Below are positions 4,599-64,000 of a stretch of DNA of 64,000 bases, piece by piece (within the stretch, counting starts at the first letter, position 1; each line of letters starts with the position of its first letter). The position numbers and the translations under genes are program-made. The stretch comes from Actinomycetota bacterium (GTDB taxonomy: Bacteria; Actinomycetota; Acidimicrobiia; Acidimicrobiales; Ilumatobacteraceae), in the NCBI GenBank assembly GCA_016213625.1, contig JACQZZ010000035.1, positions 62,001-126,000 on the forward strand. Reading direction: 5' to 3'. The notes below the pieces were generated by a model. The model was not told where the DNA came from. It searched no databases and was given only the letters and a program-made list of their open reading frames with translations.

Positions 4599-4609
4599 AA
4601 CTGCATCCC

Positions 4610-5446: not shown

Positions 5447-5449
5447 CCT
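5444..5449 (+). promoter_or_regulatory. -10-like TAGCCT overlapping the uppP stop codon
   Basis: TAGCCT begins with the TAG stop of uppP and ends 6 bases before the GTG of the pirin gene, suggesting a leaderless start for the latter. Confidence 0.45.
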
Positions 5450-5455
5450 GACGGG

Positions 5456-47623: not shown

Positions 47624-49960
47624 GTGGACGACGAGGCGGAGGTCGACGACGCAGTCGAACCGGAGGTCATCGAGCCCGCACCGGTGTCGTCAACGCGACG
47701 GCTGGCGCTCGGGCTGTTCGTCACGCTGACGGTCGCCACCTTGCCGTACGTCGAGGTGCTGCGCGGCACGCGCTCGGCGATGTACGGCGACGTGAACGAT
47801 CTGCACGTGCCGCTCTATCTGGCGGCGTGGCGCAACATCGGCAACGGCAACCTTCCGTTCTGGTCGCACGGCACCTTCGCCGGCCAGAACCTGGCGGGGT
47901 CCGGACAGTCGGCGATGTTCTACCCCGTGAACGTGCTGTTCGGTTGGTTCGAGCCGGTCACCGCCTATCGCTGGTGGTTGTTGCTCCACGTGTGGATTGC
48001 CGCCTCGGGTGCATTCCTGTGGGCATGGTGGAGGTGGCGGTCCGTGGTCGGTGCCACCGTCGCCGGCTTCGCCTATGCGTTGAACGGCTTCATCGTGCTC
48101 CACATCGTGCACATGCCGTTCGTCGCGGCGGCGGCGTGGATCCCCTTCGTGTTCCTCGGCGCGGAGTTGTTGATCGAGCGCTGGACGCTGCCGCGCGTCG
48201 CCCTGTGCGCGGGAACGATCGCGGCGGTGTCCGTGTCCGGACACGGACAGGGTCTGTGGCTCACGCTGGTGGGTGTCTCTCTGCTGGTCGTCGCCCAGTT
48301 GGTGCGCAGCGGGCGCGGCGTGTGGCCATGGGCGCGCGTCGGCGGCGCGATGGCCATCGGAGTGTGTCTCGGTGCCGTACAGACCCTGCCGCAGTACCTG
48401 TTCAGCCGCACCAGCGCGCGAGCGACGCTCGACGCCGAGGGGGCGTTCGAGTTGGCGTCGAAGCCGCGCCATCTGCTCACGCTGGTGAGGCCGCACCTGA
48501 TGGGTGGTGGGTCGGACATCCCCGGCATGTCGGGCGAGTGGACCGGCGGCGACATCTACCACGAGGTGGCGAACTACGCGGGTGTCTCGGTGGTGCTGCT
48601 GGCGTGCATCGGTGTCGCCCGGCATTGGCGCGACCGGCGGGTGATCGGGATGGTGATCATCAGCGTCGTCGCCCTCGTCACCGCCGTCGCCGACGCCACG
48701 CCATTCGGTCGCGTGGTGTTCGCGGTGGTGCCCATGGCCGGCACCTTCCGCGGGTGGGGTCGCAACCTGGTGTTGCTGAACGCGGCCGTCGCGTGCCTGG
48801 CGGCGTTGGGTGTCCGCGAGGCGATGACGCTGTCGCGACAGGCGCTGGGCCGTGTGGTGGTGGTCGTGTCGGTGGCGGCGTTGGCCATGCGTCTGCTCCC
48901 GCTGGTGACCGACCTGGACGGCACGATCGCCCCCGGTGGCGCGGTGGCGGCTGTCGGAATCCCGATGGTGCTGCTGTTCGCCACACTCGGCGCTGTGGCC
49001 CTCGCCGTGTGGCGACCCACGATCGGCGCGATCGCACTGGTCGTGGTCTGTGCGCTCGACATGGTCTCCTTCACGGTCGCATCACCGTGGCGCACCGAGG
49101 GACGGAGCGCGGAGTATCTCGACGCGTTCTATGGCGACCCGGAGCCGGTGTTCGGCAACCCGGCAGATGAGCCCGGCGGTGTGGATCGGTGGGTGAGCGA
49201 CACGTACGTGTTCCGAATGGTGTCGTTGGTGAAGGACATCCAGGGCATCAACGGGTACGACTCGCTCTTCCAGAAGGAGTTCTCGGAGACGGCGGCCGAC
49301 TTCGCCTTCGACGGCTACCCGCGCCGCGGTGACTTCTGGGAGCCCGGGTGGTTGTCGGATGTGTTGCGCGTGACCACGCTCGTCGCCACCCCAGAGGTGG
49401 AGCCCACCGACGATGCGTGGGTGCGCGAACAGGAGGTCGAGGGCACCGACTTCGTGCGTTGGACTCGCGCACCGCGACTCGACGAGGCGTATCTGGTGGG
49501 CGACGTGCGGGTTGCCACGCTCGACGAGATCCGCGATCGGTTGCGTGCCGACGACACCGATCTGGTCACCACGGCCTGGGTGGAGGACGATCGAATCGGC
49601 GAGCTCGATCGGCCCGGCTCCGTCGGCACGGCGTCGGGTTCGATGGACGAAGCCGGTCGTGGCATCTACACCGTCGACGCCTCGAGCGACGCCCTGCTCG
49701 TCGTCGCGTACGGATGGTTGAAGGGGTGGGAAGCCACGGTCGACGGCGAGGACGTCCCCGTCGTGCGCACGAATGGGTTGGTGCTCGGCGTCCCGGTACC
49801 GGCGGGTCGTCACGTCGTCCGGTTCCGCTTCGAGCCTCCGGGCCTCCGGGTGGGCCTGCTGCTCGCGGCGCTCGGGTTGCTCGCCGCCGTCACCCCATCG
49901 GTGGTGCGGGTGTGGCGCCGGCGTCGCTCCGGCCACGAGGCCGATCCGGTCGACGCCTAA
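47624..49960 (+). CDS. YfhO-like multi-spanning membrane protein
   Basis: A 778-residue protein with about twelve hydrophobic segments in the first 490 residues and one more near the C terminus (LLLAALGLLAAVTPSVV), around a soluble domain of some 240 residues. The early loop DVNDLHVPLYLAAW with FWSHGTFAGQNL resembles the GT-C-type YfhO family, whose members act on lipid-linked sugars, for example in glycosylating teichoic acids. The conserved Asp in GDVNDLH would be the catalytic candidate. Role here unknown. Its TAA stop is shared with the promoter-like hexamer of the next gene. Confidence 0.78.
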   Translation: MDDEAEVDDAVEPEVIEPAPVSSTRRLALGLFVTLTVATLPYVEVLRGTRSAMYGDVNDLHVPLYLAAWRNIGNGNLPFWSHGTFAGQNLAGSGQSAMFYPVNVLFGWFEPVTAYRWWLLLHVWIAASGAFLWAWWRWRSVVGATVAGFAYALNGFIVLHIVHMPFVAAAAWIPFVFLGAELLIERWTLPRVALCAGTIAAVSVSGHGQGLWLTLVGVSLLVVAQLVRSGRGVWPWARVGGAMAIGVCLGAVQTLPQYLFSRTSARATLDAEGAFELASKPRHLLTLVRPHLMGGGSDIPGMSGEWTGGDIYHEVANYAGVSVVLLACIGVARHWRDRRVIGMVIISVVALVTAVADATPFGRVVFAVVPMAGTFRGWGRNLVLLNAAVACLAALGVREAMTLSRQALGRVVVVVSVAALAMRLLPLVTDLDGTIAPGGAVAAVGIPMVLLFATLGAVALAVWRPTIGAIALVVVCALDMVSFTVASPWRTEGRSAEYLDAFYGDPEPVFGNPADEPGGVDRWVSDTYVFRMVSLVKDIQGINGYDSLFQKEFSETAADFAFDGYPRRGDFWEPGWLSDVLRVTTLVATPEVEPTDDAWVREQEVEGTDFVRWTRAPRLDEAYLVGDVRVATLDEIRDRLRADDTDLVTTAWVEDDRIGELDRPGSVGTASGSMDEAGRGIYTVDASSDALLVVAYGWLKGWEATVDGEDVPVVRTNGLVLGVPVPAGRHVVRFRFEPPGLRVGLLLAALGLLAAVTPSVVRVWRRRRSGHEADPVDA

Positions 49961-49963
49961 CGT
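49958..49963 (+). promoter_or_regulatory. -10-like TAACGT overlapping the YfhO-like stop codon
   Basis: TAACGT begins with the TAA stop of the preceding gene and ends 7 bases before the ATG at 49971. Confidence 0.45.
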
Positions 49964-49970
49964 CCGCACC

Positions 49971-50483
49971 ATGCCCAAGCTCACCGACGCCGAAGTCCAG
50001 ACCTTCCTGCACGAGCCAGGTCACCTGGCGCGCATCGGCACCGTCGACGCCGATGGCATGCCCAGAGTGCTGCCGCTGTGGTTCATCGTGGAGGGCGACG
50101 ACCTGTTGTTCACGCCCCGCTCGCCGGCCATCATCTGGCAGAACATCCAGCGCGACCCGCGAGCGGGCATCTCGATCGACGAGGACGCCACCCCGTGGCG
50201 CAAGGTGTCGGTACAGGGGCGCGTGCACGTGCTGCACCAGCCCGGCGACGACGACGCGTGGCGCGACATCTATCGACGGATCGCCAAGCGGTACGTGCCG
50301 GCCGACGCTGCCGACGCGTACGTCGACGGCACCGACGACCAACCTCGTGCGCTCTGCTCGGTGTGGCTCGCCGACCCGTCCACCAAGGTCGTCACCTGGC
50401 GGATGCCGGTGCGTGGCGAAGACGGTCGCGGGGTGTGGGCGAAGCGCTACTACCTCCCGGGCACGAAGTGGGCGAGCGAGTGA
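49971..50483 (+). CDS. Pyridoxamine-5'-phosphate-oxidase-fold (F420/FMN) protein
   Basis: A 170-residue split-barrel protein: LARIGTVDADGMPRVLPLWFIVEGDDLLF then NIQRDPRAGISIDEDATPWRKVSVQGRV are the typical strands that bind a flavin or coenzyme F420 phosphate in PPOX-type oxidoreductases and deazaflavin reductases. In actinobacteria such proteins often reduce F420-dependent substrates or biliverdin; which cofactor is used cannot be settled by eye. ATG with TAACGT 7 bases upstream. It ends 7 bases from the convergent lipoprotein gene. Confidence 0.85.
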   Translation: MPKLTDAEVQTFLHEPGHLARIGTVDADGMPRVLPLWFIVEGDDLLFTPRSPAIIWQNIQRDPRAGISIDEDATPWRKVSVQGRVHVLHQPGDDDAWRDIYRRIAKRYVPADAADAYVDGTDDQPRALCSVWLADPSTKVVTWRMPVRGEDGRGVWAKRYYLPGTKWASE

Positions 50484-51463: not shown

Positions 51464-51469
51464 AGACTA
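51464..51469 (-). promoter_or_regulatory. -10-like TAGTCT overlapping the CopC-CopD stop codon
   Basis: TAGTCT begins with the TAG stop of the upstream gene and ends 6 bases before the GTG at 51457. Confidence 0.42.
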
Positions 51470-53194
51470 TTGGGCGCTGCGGACGAACCTGGCGGCGGCG
51501 AGCACGAGCACGGCCCAACCCATCGCGAGCCAGAGGACCCATGGGCCGAGGTCCTGATCCGACACCACGGTGTGGGCTCGCGGCACGGGAGCCGCACTGA
51601 CGGCGAGTGTTCCCTGGAACGTCGGCACCGCGAGTGCGGCGCGTTCGATCGTCGCCTCGAGGCGGTAGCGGCCGGGCGAGGGGAGGCGCAGTGAGTCCCA
51701 TTCCACCACCCCGTTCTGCGGCGTTCCCGTGAGCTCGGAGACGGTCGCTCCCGATGCGTCGATCACCTTCACGGTCACGGTGCCGATGGGTCCCGGGGCA
51801 GGGCGGCGTGTGTCGAGCAGGCGCAGCTGCAGAAGGTTCGCGCCTGGCTGCGCCGGCTCGACCGAGGCACTGGCCGTGAGGTCGGCGAGGTCGGCGGTCA
51901 CCACCTGCGGAGGGACATCGACCAGCGGGGTGAACTGCTCGCCGACGGCCGGCGCCCTGCCGGTGAGGAATCCGGCCACCACCACCACGGCCAGCACGAG
52001 CACCAACTCGGCACCGAGCAGTCGCCCGTGCGGAGAACGATGTTGGGCCACGCGCTCGGCCGCCAGCAGACCGGCGACGGCCAGGAGCCCGAGCGCTGCC
52101 ACCTTCACGAGCAGCACTCGTCCGTAGTCCGTGCTGAACAGCGCCGTGATGGTCGCGACCGTTCGGCCCGCGAGCAGCAGCCCGGTCAATCCCGTGAGCG
52201 CGAGACCGATCGCCGCGCATCGACTGACCGGCTTCCACAGCCTGCCGCCGTGGTCGTCGTTGCGGCGAGTCACCAACCACGCCACGCCCACCGTGCCCAC
52301 CCACGTGCACAGCGCGCCGAGGTGTGCGGCTCGCAAGGCGAGCCCGACGAGCGCATTGCCGCCGACCCCAGCGTGTCCTCCCGTGGCAGCGGGCACCACG
52401 AACCACGCCCAGCAGGCTCCGACGACGCGCAGCAGGAAGTGCTGCGAGCGGTCGTCGGCCGCGCGTTGCAGCATCCGGCCACCGAACCAAGCGCCGATCG
52501 CGAGTTGCGAGCCGATGAGTGCTCGCCGACCAGGGTCGCTCCCGGTGAGGAGTTCGAACCAACGAATCGAACCCCAACCGACGGTGGCCGCATCCACGAG
52601 CAGCAACGCGATCCAACCGACCGCAAGGGCGATCGCCGAGTAGCGGGTGATGGTGACGACCCGAGCACGTGTGAGTGCTCCGGTGTCGGTTCGCCGGATC
52701 AGCACGAGCAGCAGTGCGGCGCCACCACCCATCAACAGGGCGATGTCGCACAGGCCGCGCAGCAGTGATGACCAGGAGGAGTCACCGATCTGTTCGGCGT
52801 CGACCGACGGCGGCGCGGCGACACCGACCCCGAAGCTGATGGAGCCGACCGTGCGGTGCAGATCGGCGGGATCCACGACGGAGAATCGGAGGATGTAGGC
52901 GCCCTTGGCGAGCGCGGGAAGCGTCACCGTGAGCACGGAGTCGTCGGCGCCCGAGCGCACCACCAGGTTGTCGCTGCGCTCTGTCCCGAGCGACAGCAGG
53001 GTGACGGTGCTCGCCTCGGCGAGCACTTCCTCGCTGAAGTCGAGCGACACCTGCGACGGCGCTCGGTCCAACACCGTGCCATCGATGGGGTCCGACGCCT
53101 CGAACGAAGCGTGGGCGAACGCGGGCGTCGCCGGCGCGAGCGCCACGAGCGCCGCGAGGGTGGCGAGGCAGACCGCTGCCCACCGGTGCTTCAC
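51467..53194 (-). CDS. CopC-CopD fusion, copper binding and transport protein
   Basis: A 575-residue protein. The signal peptide ends at PAFA so that the mature chain starts with His 28 (HASF), the N-terminal copper ligand of CopC. The CopC domain (28 to about 125) keeps a second His in DLHRTVGS. Eight hydrophobic segments of a CopD domain follow (about 145-450), then a further extracytoplasmic beta domain and a final membrane helix. It probably binds copper outside and imports it, here most likely to supply or protect the oxidases encoded upstream. GTG start overlaps the preceding stop (GTGA). Confidence 0.9.
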   Translation of the reverse strand: MKHRWAAVCLATLAALVALAPATPAFAHASFEASDPIDGTVLDRAPSQVSLDFSEEVLAEASTVTLLSLGTERSDNLVVRSGADDSVLTVTLPALAKGAYILRFSVVDPADLHRTVGSISFGVGVAAPPSVDAEQIGDSSWSSLLRGLCDIALLMGGGAALLLVLIRRTDTGALTRARVVTITRYSAIALAVGWIALLLVDAATVGWGSIRWFELLTGSDPGRRALIGSQLAIGAWFGGRMLQRAADDRSQHFLLRVVGACWAWFVVPAATGGHAGVGGNALVGLALRAAHLGALCTWVGTVGVAWLVTRRNDDHGGRLWKPVSRCAAIGLALTGLTGLLLAGRTVATITALFSTDYGRVLLVKVAALGLLAVAGLLAAERVAQHRSPHGRLLGAELVLVLAVVVVAGFLTGRAPAVGEQFTPLVDVPPQVVTADLADLTASASVEPAQPGANLLQLRLLDTRRPAPGPIGTVTVKVIDASGATVSELTGTPQNGVVEWDSLRLPSPGRYRLEATIERAALAVPTFQGTLAVSAAPVPRAHTVVSDQDLGPWVLWLAMGWAVLVLAAARFVRSAQ

Positions 53195-53655
53195 TCGAGG
53201 ACCACTCCCTCGAGCAGCAGGCGGCCGACGCGAACGGTGACCGCGTCGCCCTCGTGCAGCCCTCCCGAAGTGTTGGCCAGCAGCACGAAGCCGCGCTGAC
53301 CTTCAGTGGGAACGCGATGAGTGTGACCGTGGCCCGAGAGCCCGGGCGTGTCGAAGGTGGTGCCGTGAGCCTCGATGACGGGCGACGTGTCGTCGTTGGC
53401 GATGCCCGCCGCCTTGCCCCCGTCGAGCACCTGGTACTGGATCTCGACCATGCCATTGGCGGCGGTCATGTAAGCACCGAGCACTCGGATGCCGAACTCG
53501 TCCTCGATGGTGGCCGAGCGGGGCACCTCGTACGTGCCACGGGCTCCCTCGGAAGCCGAGGTCCGCTGCGACGAGATCCATGCCCCCGCACTGATGGCCA
53601 GCATGCCGGCCATCAGCGCGAGGAGCACCTTGATGGGAGATCGCACCCAGGTCAT
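53191..53655 (-). CDS. Small anchored protein of the copper operon, unknown family
   Basis: A 154-residue protein with an N-terminal membrane anchor or uncleaved signal (about 7-27) and an all-beta extracytoplasmic part. A notable GHGHTHR segment near residue 108 provides three histidines in six residues and could bind copper. Its ATG lies 2 bases after the stop of the third oxidase-like gene, and its stop overlaps the CopC-CopD start, so it is firmly part of the operon. It may be a copper chaperone or assembly factor for the oxidases; that is inference from context only. Confidence 0.75.
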   Translation of the reverse strand: MTWVRSPIKVLLALMAGMLAISAGAWISSQRTSASEGARGTYEVPRSATIEDEFGIRVLGAYMTAANGMVEIQYQVLDGGKAAGIANDDTSPVIEAHGTTFDTPGLSGHGHTHRVPTEGQRGFVLLANTSGGLHEGDAVTVRVGRLLLEGVVLE

Positions 53656-53657
53656 GA

Positions 53658-56396
53658 TCAGGCCGGCACCTGCACCATGGCCGCGGGGCCCCACCCGGCC
53701 ACGGGATCGTGCGCCCGCACCCACACCTGGGTGCCGGTGGGGCCCCAGCCACTGTTGCGGAGGACGTTGAACGACGTGGACGTGAGGTTCACCGATGTGC
53801 CGGTGCCCGGCGCTGCCGCCGAACCGACCGACCACTCGATGCGATCCACCTCGCCGCCGGTGGCCGGCACCACGGTGCCGGTGAGCCGCTGGCGATTCGG
53901 GTTCGGCCCGTTGGGCACCTTGGCCAGGGTCAGCGTCCCGAGGACGGGCTTGCCGTACGCCACCGGACTCGACTGGCCGAGGCTGTCGACCAGCGTGACG
54001 GCGATGTTCTCCTCGGCACCGATGGTGATGCCGGACAGGGTGACGTTCAGTGATTGCGTGGGATCGCCGGCGGGCATCGGGATGGCCGTGGTGACCGCAC
54101 CGATGGTGTAGGTGCCACCGGTGATGGTGACGCCCGTGCCGAACGCCTGGCCGGTGATGATGACGTCGGGTCCGGTCACGAACACGTCGGTCACCCGGGG
54201 CAGCGAGTTCACGGTGCGCAACGTGGTCGCCACCGTGTCGGGGGCACCCCAGTTGCCGGCGAGGTCGCGGCCATGGATCCAGATGTCGTGATCGCCGGGG
54301 GTGAGCGATGCCACCGAGGCGAGCGGGATGTCGGCGTAGACGTCCTCCTCCGGCGAGTCGAGGTTGCCGTCGACCGGCGTGAAGAGGAACCCGTTGCCGT
54401 TGTCGGCGGCGGACAGCGGCAACGTCTGCTGACCGTCGTCGATGAAGCCCTCGACCTCGGCGATGCCCGAGCCCGGGTCGGTGCCGATGAGCGGGTCGCT
54501 CAGATGGGCGGTGATCCGCACCACGGGAAGGTAGGTGTCGACGGTGGGGAACGCCATCGTGCCGTCGTTGTCGTTGGGCGACACGTCACCGGCCGACACG
54601 GTGGGGGCGCTCTTGTCCACCACGAGTTCGCCGATGCCGCACAGGGGGGTCACACCGTCGCCGATGTTGCTCCACATCCCGCGCTGGTCCATTGCCTGGA
54701 CGTTCACCTCGTGGCGTCCTTCCGCCAATGCTGCGACGTCGACAGCCGGGATGGCGGCCGTGACCGCCACGACGGGGCCGGGGCCGTTCGAGAACATCGA
54801 GACGCCACCCGCTCCGAGGTCCGGGCACTGGTCGATCGAGTAGACCGCATCGGTCACCAAGCCGGTGCCGGTGAGGGTGCTGTCGGCCGTGGCGCCGATG
54901 ACGACGTCCTCGGAACCGTTGGAGTAGATCGGGTCGACGTCGACCGGGCTGATGGCCGGGCCGGCACGATCGATGGTGAATGCGATGCCGGCCGGGTCGC
55001 CGTACGTCGCGCCGTCGGTCGACCACTGCACCCACAGGATGTGGCTGCCGTTGACCAGACCGCTGAGGGTGGCGACGTCGACGACATCGGCACCGCTGAG
55101 GTCGAGTGTGGTGGTCACCACGCCCGGGTCGTCGATCGACCATTGGGCGGCGGTGGTACCGGCGGGCACCGTGTAGGTGAACGGCATCGGCACACCGCCG
55201 TTGGTCTCGTCGTCACCGGCGGCGATGTTCACCTCACCGACGGGCTGACCCGGCACGCTGACCGGACCCCACACCGTGAGGAACGTGAGTGCCGGATCGG
55301 CGCTCACCTGGCCGGGCTGGCGCGACTGGTCGGCCAACGCGTAGCGGAAGCCGGCCTTGGACTCGAGCGGGATCTGCACCATCACGTCGGCCGTCTGGCC
55401 CACGTTGAGCGGCACGGTCACGTCGTCGGAGCCGTGCACCAACGCCTCGCCGTCGCGGCCGATCGTGCGCTGGTGAGCACCGACGAGACCCATCGAGTGA
55501 TCCGCCAGGCCGAGGTTCACGTAGCGCAACAGGATGTTGGCACCGGGGAAGCCGTCGATCACCTGGGTGGCCGGGTATGCCCGGCCGTTCACCAGGTGGG
55601 CGTCGGGTCGGTAGTTGGTCATGTCGAAACCGAGCGGGTCGGCGGCGAGATCCATGTCGATCTCGTTGGTGGCCAGGATGGCTTCACCGTGGAACGTGTC
55701 GGTGCCCACCGAGTAGCCGGCGGAGCCGTTGCCGCCGGTGAGCGGGTCGCCGTATGCGCAGCCCATGAACTCCTGCGGTACGCCGAGCGCGCAGCCGGCC
55801 GGGTTCGGCCGCACCACCACGGTGCCGGCGAGGCCCATCGCGATCTGGCGGGCACCCTGCGGGCTGAGCTCGCTGGCGCTGTACACCGATGTCCCGGCGT
55901 TGCCGGCGGTGAACGTGTAGGTCGCGTCGGTGCCGGTCGGCACCACGTTGCGCTCGGCCACCTGCATGCTGCGGGCGGTGAATCCGAGGTCACCGGCGGA
56001 CGTCGGCAGCTGGTTGTGCACCAGCACACTCACCGCGTCGCCGGCTGTGGCCACGATCGTGGGTCCCGGGAGTTGCGGCAGTCCGTCGACGGTGGTGGCG
56101 AAGCCCCACACGGTCACCGTGCCGAGGCCCGGGATGTCGATCGGTGCTTCCTTGGCCCACAGCTCGCAGCTGACCGCGGTGCCGGGCAGGCAGAGCGACG
56201 CAGGGTCGAGCTGCTGGACCGGATAGTCCGCCGGGTCGGTGGCCGAGGTGAAGGCGACGTCGAGGAGACGGCTCTCGATGGTGTCGACGCCGTTCACGTT
56301 GGCGGCGACGACCATGGAGGTCACGCCCATCGCGAGCGCCGTGGCGAGTGCGCCGGCCACCAGGGGCAGGCGTCGGTGTTGCTGTGCGATTCGCAT
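53658..56396 (-). CDS. Multicopper-oxidase-like protein without copper ligands, with Ig-like tail (subunit 3)
   Basis: A 912-residue secreted protein. The signal peptide covers about residues 1-30. Residues 60-370 form two cupredoxin domains homologous to those of the two preceding genes, but each place where HWH, HCH, HPH or HNH would stand holds other residues (for example SVYSASELS in place of the HCH region and LADHSMGLVGAH in place of HPH). After residue 380 come four or more Ig-like beta-sandwich repeats (DRAGPAISPVDVDPIYSN, DKSAPTVSAGDVSPND). It may serve as structural subunit and surface tether. ATG at 56396 has AGGAG 6 bases upstream; an ATG at 56402 is too close to it. Confidence 0.82.
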   Translation of the reverse strand: MRIAQQHRRLPLVAGALATALAMGVTSMVVAANVNGVDTIESRLLDVAFTSATDPADYPVQQLDPASLCLPGTAVSCELWAKEAPIDIPGLGTVTVWGFATTVDGLPQLPGPTIVATAGDAVSVLVHNQLPTSAGDLGFTARSMQVAERNVVPTGTDATYTFTAGNAGTSVYSASELSPQGARQIAMGLAGTVVVRPNPAGCALGVPQEFMGCAYGDPLTGGNGSAGYSVGTDTFHGEAILATNEIDMDLAADPLGFDMTNYRPDAHLVNGRAYPATQVIDGFPGANILLRYVNLGLADHSMGLVGAHQRTIGRDGEALVHGSDDVTVPLNVGQTADVMVQIPLESKAGFRYALADQSRQPGQVSADPALTFLTVWGPVSVPGQPVGEVNIAAGDDETNGGVPMPFTYTVPAGTTAAQWSIDDPGVVTTTLDLSGADVVDVATLSGLVNGSHILWVQWSTDGATYGDPAGIAFTIDRAGPAISPVDVDPIYSNGSEDVVIGATADSTLTGTGLVTDAVYSIDQCPDLGAGGVSMFSNGPGPVVAVTAAIPAVDVAALAEGRHEVNVQAMDQRGMWSNIGDGVTPLCGIGELVVDKSAPTVSAGDVSPNDNDGTMAFPTVDTYLPVVRITAHLSDPLIGTDPGSGIAEVEGFIDDGQQTLPLSAADNGNGFLFTPVDGNLDSPEEDVYADIPLASVASLTPGDHDIWIHGRDLAGNWGAPDTVATTLRTVNSLPRVTDVFVTGPDVIITGQAFGTGVTITGGTYTIGAVTTAIPMPAGDPTQSLNVTLSGITIGAEENIAVTLVDSLGQSSPVAYGKPVLGTLTLAKVPNGPNPNRQRLTGTVVPATGGEVDRIEWSVGSAAAPGTGTSVNLTSTSFNVLRNSGWGPTGTQVWVRAHDPVAGWGPAAMVQVPA

Positions 56397-56405
56397 GGTC
56401 ATCTC

Positions 56406-57821
56406 CTACGCATTCCCGCAATTGGTGGTGTTGGCCGGATCCACTCGGATGAGCGTCAACTGGCCGCCGAAGGCCGCGCCGTAGTTGGTGGCTTCGGCGA
56501 GGTTGTGGTTGTGGGCGACGTGGTAGTACTCGCCGCACACGTTCTTGGCCTGGACCTCCGGGTTGAGGACGCCCTGGCCGCCCAGGTACGGCGAGCCGCT
56601 CCAGTACTCGCCCTCGGTGAGGTTCTTCTGGTCGGGGCCGGGCACGGGTGTGGGGTTGGCCGTGGCCGAGTAGTCCTCGACGTTGGTCCAGGTGAACAGC
56701 GCATCGATGGTGCTGCCCGGATCCACCGTGATGGCGAACTTCTCCATCGAGAGGTCCACCCCGCCGTCACTGAGCAGGCGGCCATCCTTGGCGATCACCT
56801 TCTCGTGGTTGCTGTGAGGGTGGAACGGGTACGGTTCGCCGCCCACGGCGAGGTATCGGATCAGCGCAGGGAGTGGATTGTCGGACTCCGTGGGAGTAGC
56901 ACTGATCTGCAACGGCTCGACGTGGGCGAGCGCACCATACGGCTGGGCGGGAAGCCAGCCGGCCCCGTTGGGAGCGATCGTGTCGGGAAACGACCGTCCG
57001 TTGATGAGGAAGTAGCGAGGTGTGTAGGCCTCGGTGTAGTCCGCCGACTGCAGCACGCCACCCTCCTCGACCGCGTAGTGCACGTCGGGGTCGAGTTCGG
57101 TGAGCAGCACCATGTACTCGTGCTCGGTGCTGTATCGGCTGTTCGGGTCGTCGTACGCGAGGCGGGCGTGTCCCACGCTCTCGCCGAGGAGATCCGAGGT
57201 GTCGGCAGGGGTGGTCGGGTAGACGATGAGCGACCCGACGAGTCCCATCTCGATCTGCAGTTCGGGGTCGGTGCCGCTCTCGTAGAGGTACGTGCCCGGG
57301 TGCCCTGCGGTGAACTTGTAGGTGATCGACCCACCGGGAGCGACGTCGTCGGTGAGCGAGCGGAGGGTGGCAGTCGTCGCCGTCTGATCGAACTGCGCCT
57401 GCGCCGGTGCGCCGTTGGCGGTCACCCCGTCGATGCCGAGGAAGAGCGCCGAGGTGCGCACAGCAAGTTGGTTGCGGAGCGTGACCGTGACGACGTCGCC
57501 CTCGTTCACGCACATCACCGGTCCGGGGTATTGGAACGCCCCGTTGCCGTTGGCGTAGCCCCACATCAGCATGCTGTTGCCGTCGGGCAGGTTGATGATG
57601 CCCTCCTTCGCCGTGAGCACGTAGTTGGCCTGCCCGGGTGTCGCGCCAGTGGGCGGTGTGCACAGCAGGCCCTCGCTCTTGGCGGTGGGGGGCACGGCGC
57701 TCACGGTGTGGTTCGTGGTCAGCGCCGTGGCGCTCGTGAGGCCGGCGATCGCGAGCGCCACAGCGCCCCATCGGCGAGCGCGGCGGTGAGCCGCGGGTCG
57801 GGTGTGGTTCCGGGCAGTCAT
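56406..57821 (-). CDS. Multicopper-oxidase subunit 2, ligands only in second cupredoxin
   Basis: A 471-residue secreted protein (signal peptide about 1-42). The first cupredoxin domain has lost the copper motifs: RTSALFLGID stands where HTLHWHGF is expected, and YESGTDPELQ where YHCHFEDVE is expected. The second domain keeps HPHSNH (H334, H336, H339) and HVAHNH (H434, H437, H439). The pair H437-N-H439 is the usual HCH with Cys replaced by Asn, so this protein can give four trinuclear-cluster histidines but no type 1 copper. The ATG overlaps the stop of subunit 1 (TGATG). The natural reading is that it pairs with subunit 1. Confidence 0.87.
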   Translation of the reverse strand: MTARNHTRPAAHRRARRWGAVALAIAGLTSATALTTNHTVSAVPPTAKSEGLLCTPPTGATPGQANYVLTAKEGIINLPDGNSMLMWGYANGNGAFQYPGPVMCVNEGDVVTVTLRNQLAVRTSALFLGIDGVTANGAPAQAQFDQTATTATLRSLTDDVAPGGSITYKFTAGHPGTYLYESGTDPELQIEMGLVGSLIVYPTTPADTSDLLGESVGHARLAYDDPNSRYSTEHEYMVLLTELDPDVHYAVEEGGVLQSADYTEAYTPRYFLINGRSFPDTIAPNGAGWLPAQPYGALAHVEPLQISATPTESDNPLPALIRYLAVGGEPYPFHPHSNHEKVIAKDGRLLSDGGVDLSMEKFAITVDPGSTIDALFTWTNVEDYSATANPTPVPGPDQKNLTEGEYWSGSPYLGGQGVLNPEVQAKNVCGEYYHVAHNHNLAEATNYGAAFGGQLTLIRVDPANTTNCGNA

Positions 57822-59077
57822 CACGCCTCCACTTCCAGTTCGGTGCGCTGGCCGCCGACCCACTGGTCGGAGCCGTCGAGGTTCCCGCGGTATTTCGTCG
57901 GGTCGGTGTTGAACAACGGGTAGGTGTTGTTGCCGTCGGGCCGCCACTGCGGGGCGACGAAGATCACGTCGCGGCTCTCGCCGGCGCCGATGACGAGCGT
58001 GTCGCTCACCGTGCGCTGATCGGGCGTGAGCCACCGAGCGTCGGAGCCGACGGAGACCAGGTCGATTCCGGGCATCGCCAGCGTCTGCTCCTGGAAGCCG
58101 AGGTTGGCGATGCGCAGGAGGACTCGTTGTCCACCCGTCGCTCGGATCTTCGAGGTCTGCGGTTGGTACTGCAGGTGCTCGAAGCCGACCTGCGGGACGA
58201 GATCGCCCGTGATGTCGTCGCGAACACCGCTGGGGGCCAGCGTGTCGGGATAGGCCCGACCGTTCATCAGCCACACGTCGGGCTTGTAGCTCGTCCAGTC
58301 GGAGGTCTGGATGTGGGCGTCGTTCCAGTGCCCTGCCAGATCGAACTCGGTGAGCATGATCGGCATCTCCACGTCGAACTCCGTGTCGGGGTCGTCGTAG
58401 GCCCAGGCGCTGTTGGCCGCCGGGCGGACGAACACGATGCCGGTCATGCCCATCGTCACGTGCTCGACGTCCTCGAAGTGGCAGTGGTACATGTACGTGC
58501 CGGCGTCCTCGGGACGGAACACGTAGGTGAAGTCACGGCCGATGGGGACCGAGATGGAGGTCTCCGGTACGCCGTCGTAGTAGGGGATGGCGTTGCGGAA
58601 GCCGTGCCAGTGCAGCGTGTGCGAGTCGACGAGGTCGGGACGGGTGAGCAGACCGAGGTTGCTCAGCGTGATCCACACCTCCTCGCCCACCGTGGCCTCG
58701 ATGACCGGAGCACTGATCTGTGCCTTGCCGGCCTGGCTCTGCACGATCGGCCGGTCGAGTCCGGTCACGTCGCGGAAGCCGAAGATGTACGTGTCGAGCG
58801 GAGCCGGCGCGAGCGTGTCGGGGAAGTACGGGTCGATGACCGGCAGCTCCCTGGGCATGCCCGCCCACCCGTCGGTCACCGACAGGGCGAGCTGGCGCAC
58901 GTTCGGGCGATCCACCAGACCGGGCGGCATCTTTCCGCGGGCTCCGGGTGCGGCGGTGGCAGCCATGGCCCCGCCTCCGGCGGCGACGGCTGCGATCGCG
59001 CCGCCTCCGAAGATGAGGAAGTTGCGCCGGGAGAGCACCCGTGGGGTGTCGGCGCCGGTGTCGTGTTCGCGGCTCAC
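57821..59077 (-). CDS. Multicopper-oxidase subunit 1, Tat-exported, ligands only in first cupredoxin
   Basis: A 418-residue protein with a Tat signal (SRRNFLIFGG, residues 16-25). The first cupredoxin holds HWHG (H156, H158) and HCHFEDVEHVTMGM (H198, C199, H200, H206, M211), i.e. four trinuclear-cluster His plus type 1 copper Cys, His and Met, like domain 1 of two-domain oxidases with the type 1 site in that domain. The second cupredoxin lacks HPxH and HxH motifs (FQEQTLAMPGID in their place). It therefore cannot complete a trinuclear site alone. GTG start overlaps the stop of the giant upstream gene (GTGA). Tat export suggests copper loading before secretion. Confidence 0.9.
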   Translation of the reverse strand: MSREHDTGADTPRVLSRRNFLIFGGGAIAAVAAGGGAMAATAAPGARGKMPPGLVDRPNVRQLALSVTDGWAGMPRELPVIDPYFPDTLAPAPLDTYIFGFRDVTGLDRPIVQSQAGKAQISAPVIEATVGEEVWITLSNLGLLTRPDLVDSHTLHWHGFRNAIPYYDGVPETSISVPIGRDFTYVFRPEDAGTYMYHCHFEDVEHVTMGMTGIVFVRPAANSAWAYDDPDTEFDVEMPIMLTEFDLAGHWNDAHIQTSDWTSYKPDVWLMNGRAYPDTLAPSGVRDDITGDLVPQVGFEHLQYQPQTSKIRATGGQRVLLRIANLGFQEQTLAMPGIDLVSVGSDARWLTPDQRTVSDTLVIGAGESRDVIFVAPQWRPDGNNTYPLFNTDPTKYRGNLDGSDQWVGGQRTELEVEA

Positions 59078-62000
59078 AGGTTCCCTCCGAAGAAGTCGTC
59101 CACGCTGATGATGTTGGTGGTGGTGGTCAGGCGGAGACCGATCTGGCCGCCGTCGGCGTTGAGCGCGGGGGTCCATGCCGCTGGAAGTGTTCGGATCCCG
59201 ATGGAGACGTCGTTCCTGAACACCTCGACTCGCCCGTCAGGTCGAGCCTGGACACGCAGGAAGTCGCCGTTGTTGAAATTGGCGTTGATGGACGCCAGGT
59301 AGGTCACGGTGCCGGCCGTGGCGTACCCCACCTGCACGGTGCTGGTCGCGTCGTTGTAACGAACCTCGAGGTACGACTGCGGCGTCGTCCCGACGCTGCC
59401 CTGCGCCTTCAGCATCAGGGCGACACCGGGGTTGCCGCTGGTCGACAGCGTGATCAGTCGGACGCCTGCCTCTTGGTTCGCCCCGAGTGCCGACGTCCAC
59501 AACTCGATGCCGGCGCATCCGTTGCTCTGCGCCCGGTTGTTGCTCAGGCGGAACACCTGGCAGGTGCCGGTGGCGGGCCGGTTGGTCCACGACCCACCGA
59601 GGTTGGAGCTGTTCGCACGGTTGAACCGGTCGAGGAACGTGGCCGGCGGAGCCAGGCGCAGCGGTGCGGTGATCGACGCCGCACTGGCGAACTCGTCGGC
59701 GCCCACGTCGGGGAGCGTGCGAGTGCCGTCGTCGATGTCGGTCGCCGCCGCCTGCACGGTGGTCGGTGAGAACGCCGAGGCTGCCGTCGCCTGTGCGAGA
59801 CCGCCGTCGATGACCCGCTCGGGGCCCGGCCGGGTGGTGCTCAGGCGGTAGTCGGCCAGCTGGCGAATCGGCAGGTCGAGTGTGACGATGGCCGCAGGCC
59901 GGAAGTTCGGGAAGGTGCGCCACGAGGCGATGCTCACCTTCACGTCGTACGGGCTCTTGAAGCCGGCCGGATTGGGTCCGCCCGCCAACAGGTTGTTGCC
60001 GTTGCCCGTGGCGTTGAAGCCGGTGCCCCCGTGGTACAGCGGGCTGCTCGGCGCGGAGTCGTACACCGATCCGAACATCTTCGGCGTGCCGCTGCCGTCG
60101 GTGGTGCCAACGTCCCACGGGAAGATCGGCGATGCGTCACCGGCGAGGCCGATGCCAGTGACGCCGCTCGCCGTCCACGTGCCGGCACGGTTGTCCCAGA
60201 AGATGTTGTTCAACAACACGGGGTTGGAGAACTTCGTCGACCGGGCGAGCCCGCCGAGGCGGTTCAGCCGAGCCTGGAGCAGCGCACTGTTGGCACCGGT
60301 GGAGACGCCGGCCGGTGCGGGCAGGCCGTCACTGGTCATCGCGGTCGCCGTCGTGATGTTCTTCACGATGGTGTTGTTCACGATGCGCACGTCGGGCGTG
60401 TCGTCGATGGCGACGCCGGCACCCTCGTGGGTGGCCACGTTGTTGGCGATGATGTTGTTCGTCACGGTCATCCGGGCGTTGTTCGGCCCGCCTGCCATGA
60501 GGAAGCGAAGTCCGCCGCCGTCGTCGTTCGACAGGTTGGCGACGATCTCGTTGGCATCGACGGTCACCTGACCGGCGCCCGTGCTCAACTGGCCCGTGTT
60601 CGTGGGCAGTTCGCCGGCGATCATCACGCCGCCGCCCTCGTCGTAGGCCTGGTTGAAGCCGATGCGGTTGTGGTCGATGCGGCCGCGCTGGCTGACGCCG
60701 TAGTGGCTGATGCCGCCGCCGTACTCGGCGCTGGAGTTGCCACAGATGTCGTTGCCGGAGATGCGGTAGTCGTCGCTGCCGTAGAAGATGCCGATGGCTC
60801 CGGCGAGGTTGGTGCCGCCGTTGGCCACGATGCGGTTCGACAGGATGCGCACGTTGTCGTTGTGGTTGTCGGGGCTCCCGCCCAGGCTGCTGAGCTCGGG
60901 TGTTCCCACTCGAATCGCCCCACCGAACGTGCCGCCGTTCGACTGGAACACGTTGTTGGAGATGATGGTGTTGTTGGCGTAGGAGTTCAGGAACACGCCG
61001 CCACCCTGCGCTTCGGCGTTCACCGGCTGCGGGTTCGTGACCGGGCCACCACCGATGAAGTTCATGTTGGTGGGTTGGCCCTGCTGGTCGCCGCCGGTGA
61101 TGGTGAATCCGTCGATGGAGGTGGCGAACGAGTTGTTGCCGCTCCCGGCGTTGAACTGGTTCGTCCTCTCCGGCCGGACGTAGATGACCTCACCCTCGGA
61201 CATGGCCGGGTTGCCGGCCACCGGTAGACCTTCGACGAGCGTCTGCCAGTAGTCCTGGTAGGTGGGCGTGCCCTGCTCGTTGACGCTCCAGTAGTAGCGA
61301 CCGTCGATGCGCGAGCCGGGCACCGTGGTGGAGCCTGGGCCCACACCCTGCAGCTTCACCTTGTTGTGGACGACCAGGTTCTCGAAGTAGGCCTGGTCGG
61401 GGTTGAAGTCGGCGTACTGCGCCGCCTCGTTCGGGTAGACCACGATGATGCTGTTGCCGGCCAAGCCGTCGGCGGCTTCGATGGCCCGTTGGATGGCGCG
61501 GGGCCCGCTGCCGTCGATCGGGTCGTTCGCCGGGTTGAACTTGGGGCTCGGCCCGGTGGGCGTCTCGGTGAACGTGCCCACTTCGATGATGCGAGCCGGG
61601 TACCCGCTGCCGATCACGTGGAAGGTGATCGCGTTCGTCGCGGCGACGCCGTTGTCACCACGCACGATGCGCAGTTGCTGCGGCCCGGTGGGTGTGCTCG
61701 CCGGCAACGAGAACGTGATCTGCGTGTCGGACCACGTGGTGGTCAGGTACGAGTTGCCGCCGATGATCAGCGTGCCGGCGGTCGTGCCGAAGTTGCGGCC
61801 CGTGATGGTGAACGTGGGCGAGCCGCCGTTGTTCGGCTTCCTCCAGTACGGGCGGTCGATGCGGAAGAACTCGGGTTGGGTGGCCGGCACGGCGCACGCC
61901 GGCGGATAGACCACCTGTCCGCCGGGCAGCTGGAAGCTGGCCGCCACCCGCGTGGGGGCCTGGTCCACCGGGTGCACCACACCCGGCCAGCCCTGGAAGT

Positions 62001-64000
62001 TGGTGCTGATGGTGCGGTACTGCGGGTTGAAGTTGGCGTTGGGATGTCCCAGCTGTCCCGGGTCGTTGCCGATCAGGCGGAACACGTTCGGGCACACACC
62101 CGACGGGGTGGGGCAGGCGATGGTGTCCGTGGAGGGCAGCAGCATCTCGTAGTAGCCGTTGTAGTCGGACTCGGCCGTGTAGACGAGGCGCCCGCGGTAG
62201 TCGTACGCACCCACCGGCACGTTCGGCATGCCGGCCTTCTCGCCGTACACCGTGCTCTTCGGATCGGTGGAGACGCTGAGGTCGTCGATGATGTAGCCGA
62301 CGAATCGGGTGGGGAGCGGCACGTCGGTGTACACGTGGAAGATGGGCGCGATGGAACGACGCGGCTGCACCTTCACGAGCTTCACGTCGCAGTAGGGGCG
62401 CTCGCTGCCCTGGACGGGGCTCCCGCCGTTGGCCGCGAAGTCGGGGTTGTTGATGTCGTTGACATCGATCATGTGCAGCGCACCGGCGCACGCCGACTCG
62501 GAGGTGTTCTCCGAGTAACCGTTGCCGGTGGTCAGAGGTGCGCCCGGATCCGACGGTGTGCCGTCGGGATCTGCCACCCAGCCCTCCTGGGGAACGTACG
62601 TGTTACCCGTGAAGACGTTGATGGACGCCTCGTCGGTGAACTTGTACAGCGGGCGCGGGTCGGCGGGTGTGCCGAGCACGGTGGTGTCCGCGGGCGGCAC
62701 TGCCTCCACGAGGTAGTCGCCGGTGGTGTCGGTCTCGAACCCGTAGTTGCCGTCGACCTCACCATTGGTGCCGAACTGCACTCCCATCATCGGTGCCTCG
62801 ACGCAGGGGCTGCCGTCGCGGGCTTCGGCGTCGTCGGGGGTGTTGGGCACGAACGGGGGGAGCGCCTGGTTGCTGCTCAGCTGGCCGTCGGCGGTGCGTG
62901 CCGCGCAACCGGTGGGCCGGCTCCAGTGTTCGGTGGCGGTGGCGTCGAGCGGGTCGCACCCGCCCGGCTCGTCCACCGTGCCGTACTCGCTCTCGGGGCG
63001 CACACAGCCGCCGGCGCCGTACTGCTTGATGGCGCCGTTGGCGGCCAGCTCGTAGCTCCCGCCGTTCTTGCGGGGTGTCCACAGCTGCATCTCGACATCG
63101 GGCACGCCCGGCTGCCAGTCCTCGGCGGCTGCGTTGCGGGGGTTCAGTTCGTTGCGGGTGACGTCGTAGCTGACCGTGCCGACGATGCCGCCGTTCTCAC
63201 CCGGGGCGTACGGCTGCACGCCGACGTCGAAGTGACCGCCGAGGCCGAAGATGTTGAGCACGTTCCAGTCGACCTGTCCACTGAGGAAGGTCTTGCTCGT
63301 GGATTCGTTGTTGAGCTTCCACGTGAACCCGACGGTCTTGTAGCCGGGGTGGTACGCCTCGAGGATCAGGAACTGGCCCAGCGGGTAGGCGGCCATCGAC
63401 CAGTTGCCCTCGGGATCGGTGCTGGCCGACGCCGCGCCCTGGTCCTGCAGGGTGTTCACGCGGGTCCGCAGGGTGAGGCCGAAGTTGGGGATGCCCGGCT
63501 CCTCCATGGAGGTGCCGATGCCATCACGCTTGCCGTTGCCATTGCGGTCGAGGAAGACCGAACCGTCGAGGTCGGTGAACCAGCCGGCGAGGGGGAAGGT
63601 GCCGACGTTCACGTTCTGGCCGTTGCGCACGCTGACCTGCACGAAGTCGAGCAGGCGGATCTGCGCTTCGTCCCAGACGGTGAGCGAGTAGGTGCCGTCG
63701 GGAACGTTCGTGATGTCGAAGGTGCCGTCTTCGCGGGCCCGGTCGACGTACACCGCGAGGTCGGTCGACAGTGTCGGGCAGCCGGCGAGGCAGGCGAGCG
63801 ACACCCAGCCGTCCTCGACCGGCTTCTCGTTGACGGTGCTCGTGCCGCCGCCCCAGATGGTGCCGGCGTTGGGCAGACCACCCTGCTGGGCGACGTAGGT
63901 GCGGCCCACCATCAGGCGGCCGGAGATGGTGGCGCCACCGCTGGCGGGCAGTGCGTTCTGGCGCTTCACGTAGCCGAAGTACACGAACGGGGTCGCCTCG
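59074..64000 (-). CDS. Giant secreted modular protein (SdrD-like, TIG, beta-helix, LamG-like), 5' end outside window
   Basis: More than 1640 residues are visible; the frame is open to the window edge, so signal peptide and start lie beyond. In order: SdrD/Cna-B-like beta domains (64000 to about 62000; LDRNGNGKRDG and GIVGTVSYDV), an IPT/TIG domain near 61850-61610 (TFTITGRNFGTTAGTL), a right-handed beta-helix of pectate-lyase type (about 61450-59900; many N-rich turns such as NNTIISNNVFQSNG), and a C-terminal LamG/concanavalin-like domain (about 59640-59080; DRFNRANSSNLGGSW). No catalytic motif is obvious. Its stop overlaps the start of oxidase subunit 1, so it heads or belongs to the copper operon, perhaps as the extracellular scaffold. 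Confidence 0.83.
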   Translation of the reverse strand, partial: EATPFVYFGYVKRQNALPASGGATISGRLMVGRTYVAQQGGLPNAGTIWGGGTSTVNEKPVEDGWVSLACLAGCPTLSTDLAVYVDRAREDGTFDITNVPDGTYSLTVWDEAQIRLLDFVQVSVRNGQNVNVGTFPLAGWFTDLDGSVFLDRNGNGKRDGIGTSMEEPGIPNFGLTLRTRVNTLQDQGAASASTDPEGNWSMAAYPLGQFLILEAYHPGYKTVGFTWKLNNESTSKTFLSGQVDWNVLNIFGLGGHFDVGVQPYAPGENGGIVGTVSYDVTRNELNPRNAAAEDWQPGVPDVEMQLWTPRKNGGSYELAANGAIKQYGAGGCVRPESEYGTVDEPGGCDPLDATATEHWSRPTGCAARTADGQLSSNQALPPFVPNTPDDAEARDGSPCVEAPMMGVQFGTNGEVDGNYGFETDTTGDYLVEAVPPADTTVLGTPADPRPLYKFTDEASINVFTGNTYVPQEGWVADPDGTPSDPGAPLTTGNGYSENTSESACAGALHMIDVNDINNPDFAANGGSPVQGSERPYCDVKLVKVQPRRSIAPIFHVYTDVPLPTRFVGYIIDDLSVSTDPKSTVYGEKAGMPNVPVGAYDYRGRLVYTAESDYNGYYEMLLPSTDTIACPTPSGVCPNVFRLIGNDPGQLGHPNANFNPQYRTISTNFQGWPGVVHPVDQAPTRVAASFQLPGGQVVYPPACAVPATQPEFFRIDRPYWRKPNNGGSPTFTITGRNFGTTAGTLIIGGNSYLTTTWSDTQITFSLPASTPTGPQQLRIVRGDNGVAATNAITFHVIGSGYPARIIEVGTFTETPTGPSPKFNPANDPIDGSGPRAIQRAIEAADGLAGNSIIVVYPNEAAQYADFNPDQAYFENLVVHNKVKLQGVGPGSTTVPGSRIDGRYYWSVNEQGTPTYQDYWQTLVEGLPVAGNPAMSEGEVIYVRPERTNQFNAGSGNNSFATSIDGFTITGGDQQGQPTNMNFIGGGPVTNPQPVNAEAQGGGVFLNSYANNTIISNNVFQSNGGTFGGAIRVGTPELSSLGGSPDNHNDNVRILSNRIVANGGTNLAGAIGIFYGSDDYRISGNDICGNSSAEYGGGISHYGVSQRGRIDHNRIGFNQAYDEGGGVMIAGELPTNTGQLSTGAGQVTVDANEIVANLSNDDGGGLRFLMAGGPNNARMTVTNNIIANNVATHEGAGVAIDDTPDVRIVNNTIVKNITTATAMTSDGLPAPAGVSTGANSALLQARLNRLGGLARSTKFSNPVLLNNIFWDNRAGTWTASGVTGIGLAGDASPIFPWDVGTTDGSGTPKMFGSVYDSAPSSPLYHGGTGFNATGNGNNLLAGGPNPAGFKSPYDVKVSIASWRTFPNFRPAAIVTLDLPIRQLADYRLSTTRPGPERVIDGGLAQATAASAFSPTTVQAAATDIDDGTRTLPDVGADEFASAASITAPLRLAPPATFLDRFNRANSSNLGGSWTNRPATGTCQVFRLSNNRAQSNGCAGIELWTSALGANQEAGVRLITLSTSGNPGVALMLKAQGSVGTTPQSYLEVRYNDATSTVQVGYATAGTVTYLASINANFNNGDFLRVQARPDGRVEVFRNDVSIGIRTLPAAWTPALNADGGQIGLRLTTTTNIISVDDFFGGNL

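Follow-up and report, generated by a model that had tools for sequence, protein, structure and literature searches.

In the present work, we examine three adjacent genes on the minus strand of a 64,000-nucleotide (nt) stretch of DNA from an Actinomycetota bacterium of the Ilumatobacteraceae (contig JACQZZ010000035.1, positions 62,001 to 126,000), called the window below. They occupy positions 53,658 to 59,077, directly after a giant gene, and encode three paralogous proteins of two cupredoxin domains each, here named S1, S2 and S3. We will show that the copper ligands of what is probably one multicopper oxidase are divided between S1 and S2, with S3 being ligand-free, and we will weigh what kind of enzyme the three proteins may form. 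A previous assignment based on the letters of the window only, the sequence-only reading, had proposed a heterotrimer that arose by breakup of a six-domain oxidase.

Three genes with divided copper ligands

The features of the three genes are the following (window positions; aa, amino acids; Tat, twin-arginine translocation; Sec, general secretory pathway).

57821..59077, minus strand: S1, 418 aa; two cupredoxin domains and a Tat-type signal motif; holds the sole type 1 site and one half of the trinuclear ligands
58604..58621, minus strand: S1 H153 (type 1) and H156-W-H158 (trinuclear); invariant, 88/88
58445..58486, minus strand: S1 H198-C199-H200, H206 and M211; invariant, 88/88 (M211, 86/88)
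56406..57821, minus strand: S2, 471 aa; two cupredoxin domains and a hydrophobic, Sec-like N-terminus; the other trinuclear half in domain 2; no type 1 site
56814..56822, minus strand: S2 H334-P-H336; 81/81 rows
56505..56513, minus strand: S2 H437-N-H439; Asn, Ser or Ala at the would-be type 1 Cys position
53658..56402, minus strand: S3, 914 aa; two ligand-free cupredoxin domains, reaching to about residue 385, followed by a long C-terminal extension

On re-reading the window sequences, the motif census and residue numbers of the sequence-only reading were found to be correct for all three proteins. S1 contains HWH (156-158), HCH (198-200), C199, which is its only cysteine, H206 and M211. S2 contains HPH (334-336) and HNH (437-439) and has no type 1 site, and HxH is absent from the 914 residues of S3. 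The type 1 set that had been given for S1 (C199, H206 and M211) is present in all its members but was incomplete, H153 in HTLHWHG having been omitted. The established multicopper oxidase motifs assign H153, C199, H206 and M211 to the type 1 site and the HxH pairs to the trinuclear site. The assignment in S1 and S2 follows from this and from alignments to the structures 3g5w and 2zwn, which we take to be type C two-domain multicopper oxidases. Each chain has two cupredoxin domains, as seen from Pfam for domain 1 (Cu-oxidase_3 in S1, S2 and S3) and from profile alignments across both. The three genes had also been described as overlapping, which holds for S1 and S2 (1 nt) but not for S2 and S3, where there is a gap of 3 nt.

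For comparison, 94 S1 relatives were collected in one scan of bacterial and archaeal genomes. Eighty of them, together with eight loci from a family search (L008 and L010 to L016) and the window, make up 89 scored loci, i.e. the window and 88 of L008 to L096; L009 was excluded (other strand; same genome as L136). Some genomes were entered twice, and there are 99 distinct S1 sequences. Among the scored loci, 50 belong to Actinomycetota, 17 to Chloroflexota and 12 to Bacillota. S2 comes after S1 in 84 of the 89, the other five ending at most 305 nt from S1, and S3 comes after S2 in 75, the other nine ending at most 340 nt from S2. The order is kept at every scored locus with room for the trio.

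The ligands of S1 were counted in 89 rows, one of them partial: H153, H156, H158, H198, C199, H200 and H206 are kept in all 88 rows reaching there, and M211 in 86, with Leu in the other two. In the 84 rows of S2, some of which end short of the ligand positions, H334, H336 and H437 are kept in 81 of 81 and H439 in 80 of 80. Where a type 1 Cys would be expected, S2 has Ser in 61 rows, Asn in 18 and Ala in 2, and never Cys. None of the 75 S3 rows has the ligand set; an HxH motif is present somewhere in 11 of them, and within the first ~330 residues in three, one being a contig-end fragment. Glu202 and Glu205 of the HCHFE..EH loop of S1 are also invariant (88/88), and directly ahead of the first S1 ligand motif (H153) there is an RPDLxD insertion, invariant across 38 rows and missing from 3g5w and 2zwn. 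This insertion and the two glutamates may serve as a binding site for a metal substrate or as a proton relay; Mn, Fe, Cu and phenols are all candidate substrates.

Co-occurrence, export signals and structure models

We now turn to the occurrence of S1 and S2 across 299 genomes of one Bacillota-side phylum. A strong S1 match (>360 bits) is found in 14 genomes and a strong S2 match (>480 bits) in 13, with thresholds that were set after the tables had been inspected. Both are present in 13 genomes, and S2 is never found without S1. Fisher's test gives p ~7e-22, or ~6e-21 if the broken S1 of genome G760 is counted as S1-only; it treats the genomes as independent and ignores kinship. At the E limits of the searches, the S1 profile (1e-20) matches 29 of the 299 genomes, the single-chain family described below and other oxidases included, and the S2 profile (1e-60) matches 14, among them G635 via its S3 gene. 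From the listed handles, both searches were taken to cover the same 299 genomes.

In G635 (locus L113, 5617-7692, minus strand), S1 and S3 are present, and S2 and the giant gene are missing. The S1 of this locus reads HTIYWEG and YHCYFE..EH, i.e. H156Y, H158E and H200Y, by which three of the four trinuclear histidines are lost. H153, H198, C199, H206 and M211 are retained, and the type 1 site is complete. This motif loss is the case that would be predicted for a trinuclear site shared with S2, and S1 and S2 appear to depend on each other.

A twin-arginine motif lies ahead of the S1 core in 43/49 Actinomycetota and 17/17 Chloroflexota loci; the corresponding numbers are 8/48 and 1/16 for S2, and 8/46 and 0/14 for S3. 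By a crude test, a hydrophobic N-terminal stretch is present in S2 of all loci of both phyla (48/48 and 16/16), in S3 of 41/46 and 11/14, and in S1 of 40/49 Actinomycetota. Outside Bacillota, S1 is probably exported folded by Tat, and S2 and S3 unfolded by Sec, in which case a shared centre would be completed outside the membrane. In Bacillota, neither the Tat motif nor the hydrophobic stretch was found (S1 0/12, S2 0/11, S3 0/10), and the giant proteins of L070, L082 and L083 start without an obvious signal as judged by eye. The Bacillota hosts Moorella and Tepidibacillus are spore formers, and CotA and MnxG are spore-associated oxidases; by analogy, a comparable association with spores is possible for the Bacillota trio.

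Structure models were calculated for the trio of L070, from a metagenome-assembled genome of Peptococcaceae, in which S1, S2 and S3 lie in one frame and were folded as one chain, with stops read as residues. The alignment consisted of 37 rows (S1 in 27, S2 in 25 and S3 in 14), and four landmarks were checked in every row. AlphaFold2 yielded a mean predicted local distance difference test (pLDDT) value of 84.4 and a predicted template modelling (pTM) score of 0.83 for the trio, with disordered linkers, and values of 81.4 and 0.77 for S1 and S2 together (27 rows). For unpacked subunits, pTM values of ~0.35 and ~0.5, respectively, would be expected, according to our own estimate from chain lengths. 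In a Foldseek search with the trio model, factor V/VIII, ceruloplasmin and MnxG come first, with 1,200-1,400 aligned columns and E down to 8e-53. The model of S1 and S2 matches laccases and related three-domain oxidases with target-normalised template modelling (TM) scores of 0.40-0.57.

Origin and proposed complex

The top solved-structure match of the S1, S2 and S3 family profiles is in each case 3g5w, which has its blue-site motif in domain 1. In the profile alignments, HPH and the second HxH of S2 align with the two ligand motifs in domain 2 of 3g5w and 2zwn, and those positions are lost in S1 and S3. With single window sequences as queries, S1 again matches 3g5w first.

The members of a sister family (L097 to L109, from Bacillota-side genomes) are single chains with two domains and 510-569 aa, with four HxH motifs in 12 of the 13 loci; L108 (474 aa) has HNH alone, and L099 and L100 are near copies. 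In eight aligned members, HxH and HCH..H..M of domain 1 and HxH and HNH of domain 2 are all invariant. Read by eye, the rows of this family show no obvious signal peptide. In one genome, G797, a member of this family (L107) occurs together with the trio (L124).

In a tree of 83 rows, S1 is a single branch (100/98), as are S3 (94/92) and the sister family (100/100), which joins S1 (100/93). The Bacillota rows split from the Actinomycetota and Chloroflexota rows within each paralogue, which means that S1, S2 and S3 were distinct before these lineages parted, or that they spread together. The distance matrices of the three proteins at 61 loci correlate with r of 0.85-0.91, values that are inflated by related sequences. 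In view of the profile matches to 3g5w, and of its domain 2 ligands being retained in S2 and lost in S1 and S3, the trio fits better with a type C two-domain enzyme that would have been tripled, with ligands retained only where one site forms; the direction is based on parsimony, the tree being not firmly rooted.

We consider it probable that S1, S2 and S3 are anciently diverged type C paralogues that form an obligate heterotrimer with one active centre, most likely as a 1:1:1 ring of six cupredoxins. Taken separately, a trinuclear site shared by S1 and S2 is very likely, and a 1:1:1 ring of the three proteins is likely. Domain 1 of S1 would hold the type 1 copper (H153, C199, H206 and M211) and one trinuclear half (H156, H158, H198 and H200). 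The other half (H334, H336, H437 and H439) would come from domain 2 of S2, packed against domain 1 of S1, and S3 would be copper-free and close the ring. The ordinary multicopper oxidase cycle consists of oxidation at type 1 copper, transfer via the Cys to its flanking His, and four-electron reduction of O2. In the proposed complex, substrate electrons would enter at the type 1 copper of S1 and move via Cys199 to both flanking His, and the four-electron reduction of O2 would take place at the S1/S2 interface. For Actinomycetota and Chloroflexota, where S1 is Tat-type and S2 and S3 are mostly Sec-like, this implies that the centre would form in full only after export across the membrane.

Of the sequence-only reading, the obligate oxidase of several subunits is supported: S1 and S2 each carry one part of the trinuclear ligands and S3 is ligand-free, and gene order, invariance, co-occurrence, the case of L113, the tree and the pTM of 0.83 are all in its favour. 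Gene order, the division of the ligands, their conservation, co-occurrence and paralogy are observed; the complex itself, its stoichiometry and copper loading, the path of the electrons and the routes of export are what we infer. The trio would work like a type C two-domain oxidase yet is not a strict member of that type, since no chain holds the full ligand set. The type 1 ligands are in domain 1 of S1 and missing from S2 and S3, and of the trinuclear halves S1 has that of domain 1, S2 that of domain 2, and S3 none.

It is important to point out that a number of observations weigh against the proposed complex. Superposition of the trio model on ceruloplasmin, factor V/VIII and MnxG gives TM ~0.2 and root-mean-square deviations (rmsd) of ~32-36 Å (Foldseek), which suggests that the model is a similar string of six cupredoxins with a spatial order that differs from that of the six-domain oxidases. 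The low TM and high rmsd speak against the ring order S1-S2-S3. As only two orders exist in a three-membered ring, S1-S3-S2 is what remains if the model is a ring, with domain 2 of S2 adjoining domain 1 of S1. This order is reached by elimination only, and the arrangement may be other than a ring. The model of S1 and S2 reaches a query-normalised TM (TMq) of 0.31 against ceruloplasmin, a value that carries little weight either way. Inter-protein coupling, calculated by direct coupling analysis with nine residue classes and by corrected mutual information (MIp) for 90 loci (effective number, Meff, 58; duplicates L118, L135, L136 and L137 and the S2-less L113 removed), gave no usable signal for the ring order. 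Scores between and within proteins were equally high, and MIp favoured the pair S1 domain 2 and S2 domain 1 as well as S1 domain 1 and S2 domain 2.

The case of S2 loss, L113, is a single assembly (n=1). L112 (G760; 4549-6040) also lacks S2; here S1 lies in two frames and runs into an S3 fragment, with its motifs intact. Either a deletion or a faulty assembly may explain this; if the locus is S1-only, it would be an S2-less case without the predicted motif loss. In the tree, S2 is not one branch (two changes; one branch in 32% of bootstrap trees) and falls in two parts around the root, which is weak and based on a single distant outgroup row. The single-sequence searches of the window proteins lead to ascorbate oxidase first for S2 and to nitrite reductase first for S3. 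Finally, S1 has the hydrophobic N-terminal stretch in only 4 of 17 Chloroflexota loci by the crude test.

Another option considered was that S1 and S2 share the trinuclear site in a complex other than a 1:1:1 ring, with S3 as an accessory or scaffold-binding protein, or in a larger assembly, for example of two trimers or built on the giant protein. This would be in line with S3 changing fastest (mean distance 0.60 vs 0.47 and 0.49) and being far longer in many loci outside Bacillota, with the giant gene being nearly as constant as S1-S3, and with the pTM of 0.77 obtained from S1 and S2 alone. However, S3 shares the two-cupredoxin core and comes after S2 in all 75 loci with room, the pTM of the trio is 0.83, and related two-domain enzymes are trimers (PMC13151041). 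We regard this option as unlikely. A scenario in which S1 alone is a blue-copper electron carrier or reductase, and S2 and S3 are separate copper-binding proteins with no shared trinuclear site, is much harder to reconcile with the data and is judged very improbable. The S1 of L113 does keep its full type 1 site despite the loss of S2 and of three trinuclear His, and there is a weak similarity to nitrite reductase, far under the NCBIfam cut-off. On the other hand, the eight trinuclear-type His are invariant in the rows and would be needless for a type 1 carrier, S2 occurs without S1 in none of the 299 genomes, and the sister family holds both halves in one chain.

The origin proposed in the sequence-only reading, a six-domain single-chain oxidase broken into three genes, is not borne out, and we give it next to no weight. 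It accounts for the total of six cupredoxins and one trinuclear site, as in ceruloplasmin, and for the six-domain chains at the head of the Foldseek list. Nevertheless, S1 has its type 1 site in domain 1, single two-domain chains make up the family next to S1 in the tree, every family profile has as its top solved structure a two-domain oxidase whose blue site is in domain 1, and S1 and S2 are in separate open frames at the listed loci. According to a published survey (PMC3600357), the presumed ancestral six-domain protein has blue sites in domains 2, 4 and 6, and bacterial six-domain oxidases have theirs in domain 2. Two further candidates were rejected: nitrite reductase, as the TIGR02376 scores are 28.4, 39.9 and 19.9 bits vs a cut-off of 296.3, and a frameshifted or misassembled six-domain gene, as the same three-gene layout recurs across many genomes.

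Compared to known systems, the trio resembles the type C oxidases 3g5w and 2zwn in having two cupredoxins per chain, with the type 1 motif placed in domain 1 and HxH pairs found in both domains. Type C oxidases are, however, trimers of identical chains that each carry every ligand, whereas here the ligands are spread over two of three paralogues, with at most one site per trimer. The sister family, beside S1 in the tree, has the same motifs (HxH and HCH..H..M in domain 1, HxH and HNH in domain 2), but all of them in one chain and with no giant-gene match above 90 bits. POXA3 heterodimeric fungal laccases also have a second subunit, but their large subunit alone holds the complete copper centre. 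Ceruloplasmin and MnxG (PDB 9bxa) share with the trio the six cupredoxins, the single trinuclear site and a place among the top Foldseek matches. They are, on the other hand, one polypeptide, in contrast to the separate open frames seen here at the listed loci, and their type 1 site is in even-numbered domains (PMC3600357), not in the first domain as in S1. MnxEFG is likewise a multicopper oxidase that requires further gene products, but MnxG is its sole multicopper oxidase and MnxE and MnxF are unlike characterised proteins (PMC5622069), while in the trio the ligands themselves are divided.

A 2026 paper divides multicopper oxidases into two-domain trimers and three- or six-domain monomers and describes the trinuclear site of two-domain oxidases in general as common to two protomers (PMC13151041). 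No description of a three-protein oxidase of this kind was found in the open-licence literature on heteromeric and two-domain multicopper oxidases, MnxG and Moorella spores. We are inclined to regard the trio as a multicopper oxidase class of its own, in which three paralogues form an obligate heterotrimer with one trinuclear centre between two of them. It would represent the "tripled but never fused" state, which in evolutionary schemes comes between two-domain homotrimers and six-domain oxidases. If this is true, a conserved heteromeric form with one centre per trimer, and with the two other domain 1/domain 2 interfaces stripped of ligands, would be the natural counterpart of a step before the six-domain proteins, which is where published evolutionary schemes place such a step (PMC3600357). 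The step to six-domain oxidases would become testable, both as to what is gained from keeping one site of three and as to how a copper site is put together from subunits that are exported by different routes. Read gene by gene, the trio would pass for three degenerate oxidases.

Partner genes and distribution

The trio is part of a pack of six genes on the minus strand, in the order giant gene, S1, S2, S3, 154-aa gene and CopC-CopD, with junctions that are 1-4 nt overlaps or 2-3 nt gaps (the giant gene and S1 overlap by 4 nt, GTGA). The six genes look like one operon. The remaining members are the following.

59074..64000 and past the window end (contig C2:121077-127151), minus strand: giant partner gene, a 2,025-codon open frame
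53191..53655, minus strand: gene of a small 154-aa protein, starting 2 nt after S3; no Pfam match
51467..53194, minus strand: CopC-CopD fusion (copper handling), with a 4 nt overlap with the small gene

The sequence-only reading had omitted the giant gene, which, in all three phyla, is as constant a neighbour of S1 as S2 and S3 are. Its product, mostly of 1,500-2,000 residues, is encoded directly ahead of S1 in 98 of the 99 loci with room, the exception being L113. Of these 98, 91 come from the gene table and seven from tblastn, and some genomes are counted twice; seven loci outside the gene table, four without room, three without the S1 core, and L112 are omitted from the 99. The gene table had missed genes shadowed by long antisense frames (six giants and the small gene of the window), and tblastn was used instead. 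The giant protein has matches to CarboxypepD_reg/SdrD_B-like, TIG and right-handed beta-helix domains, several of them under the Pfam cut-offs, and one member has a weak NosD match. Beside the sister family, none of the 13 loci gave a tblastn match to the giant gene above 90 bits in the DNA covered, and ten of them have at least 4.3 kb upstream. The giant protein is a constant partner of S1-S3 and probably a scaffold or anchor, or else a substrate-capturing surface, all of which are guesses. Should S1 be exported by Tat and S2 and S3 by Sec, the oxidase could not exist until its parts meet outside, and the giant beta-helix protein would be a dedicated partner.

Relatives of the small gene are found in 48 of 121 loci and of CopC-CopD in 47 of 121, the window counted in both cases (tblastn; 33 and 35, respectively, by the gene table). 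Their recurrence points to a putative role in copper supply. The results thereby flag a gene set made up of a giant protein, an oxidase trio and copper handling genes. Elsewhere in the window, the product of the frame 49773-50483 (plus strand) looks, as judged by eye, like a PPOX-type flavin or F420 protein.

With respect to distribution, the trio was found at E 1e-60 in 3 of 396 genomes of the window's phylum and in 8 of 301 genomes of the phylum of a Chloroflexota locus, the centre genome being counted each time. Its hosts include Kribbella, Terrabacter and Micromonospora. No relative was found in viral contigs. A search of the class Bacilli with the S1 profile (E 1e-15) gave no open frame longer than 717 aa, and hence no MnxG-like fusion at that E value. 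The system is rare yet wide, old and general, and the hosts of the trio include named soil and thermophilic bacteria.

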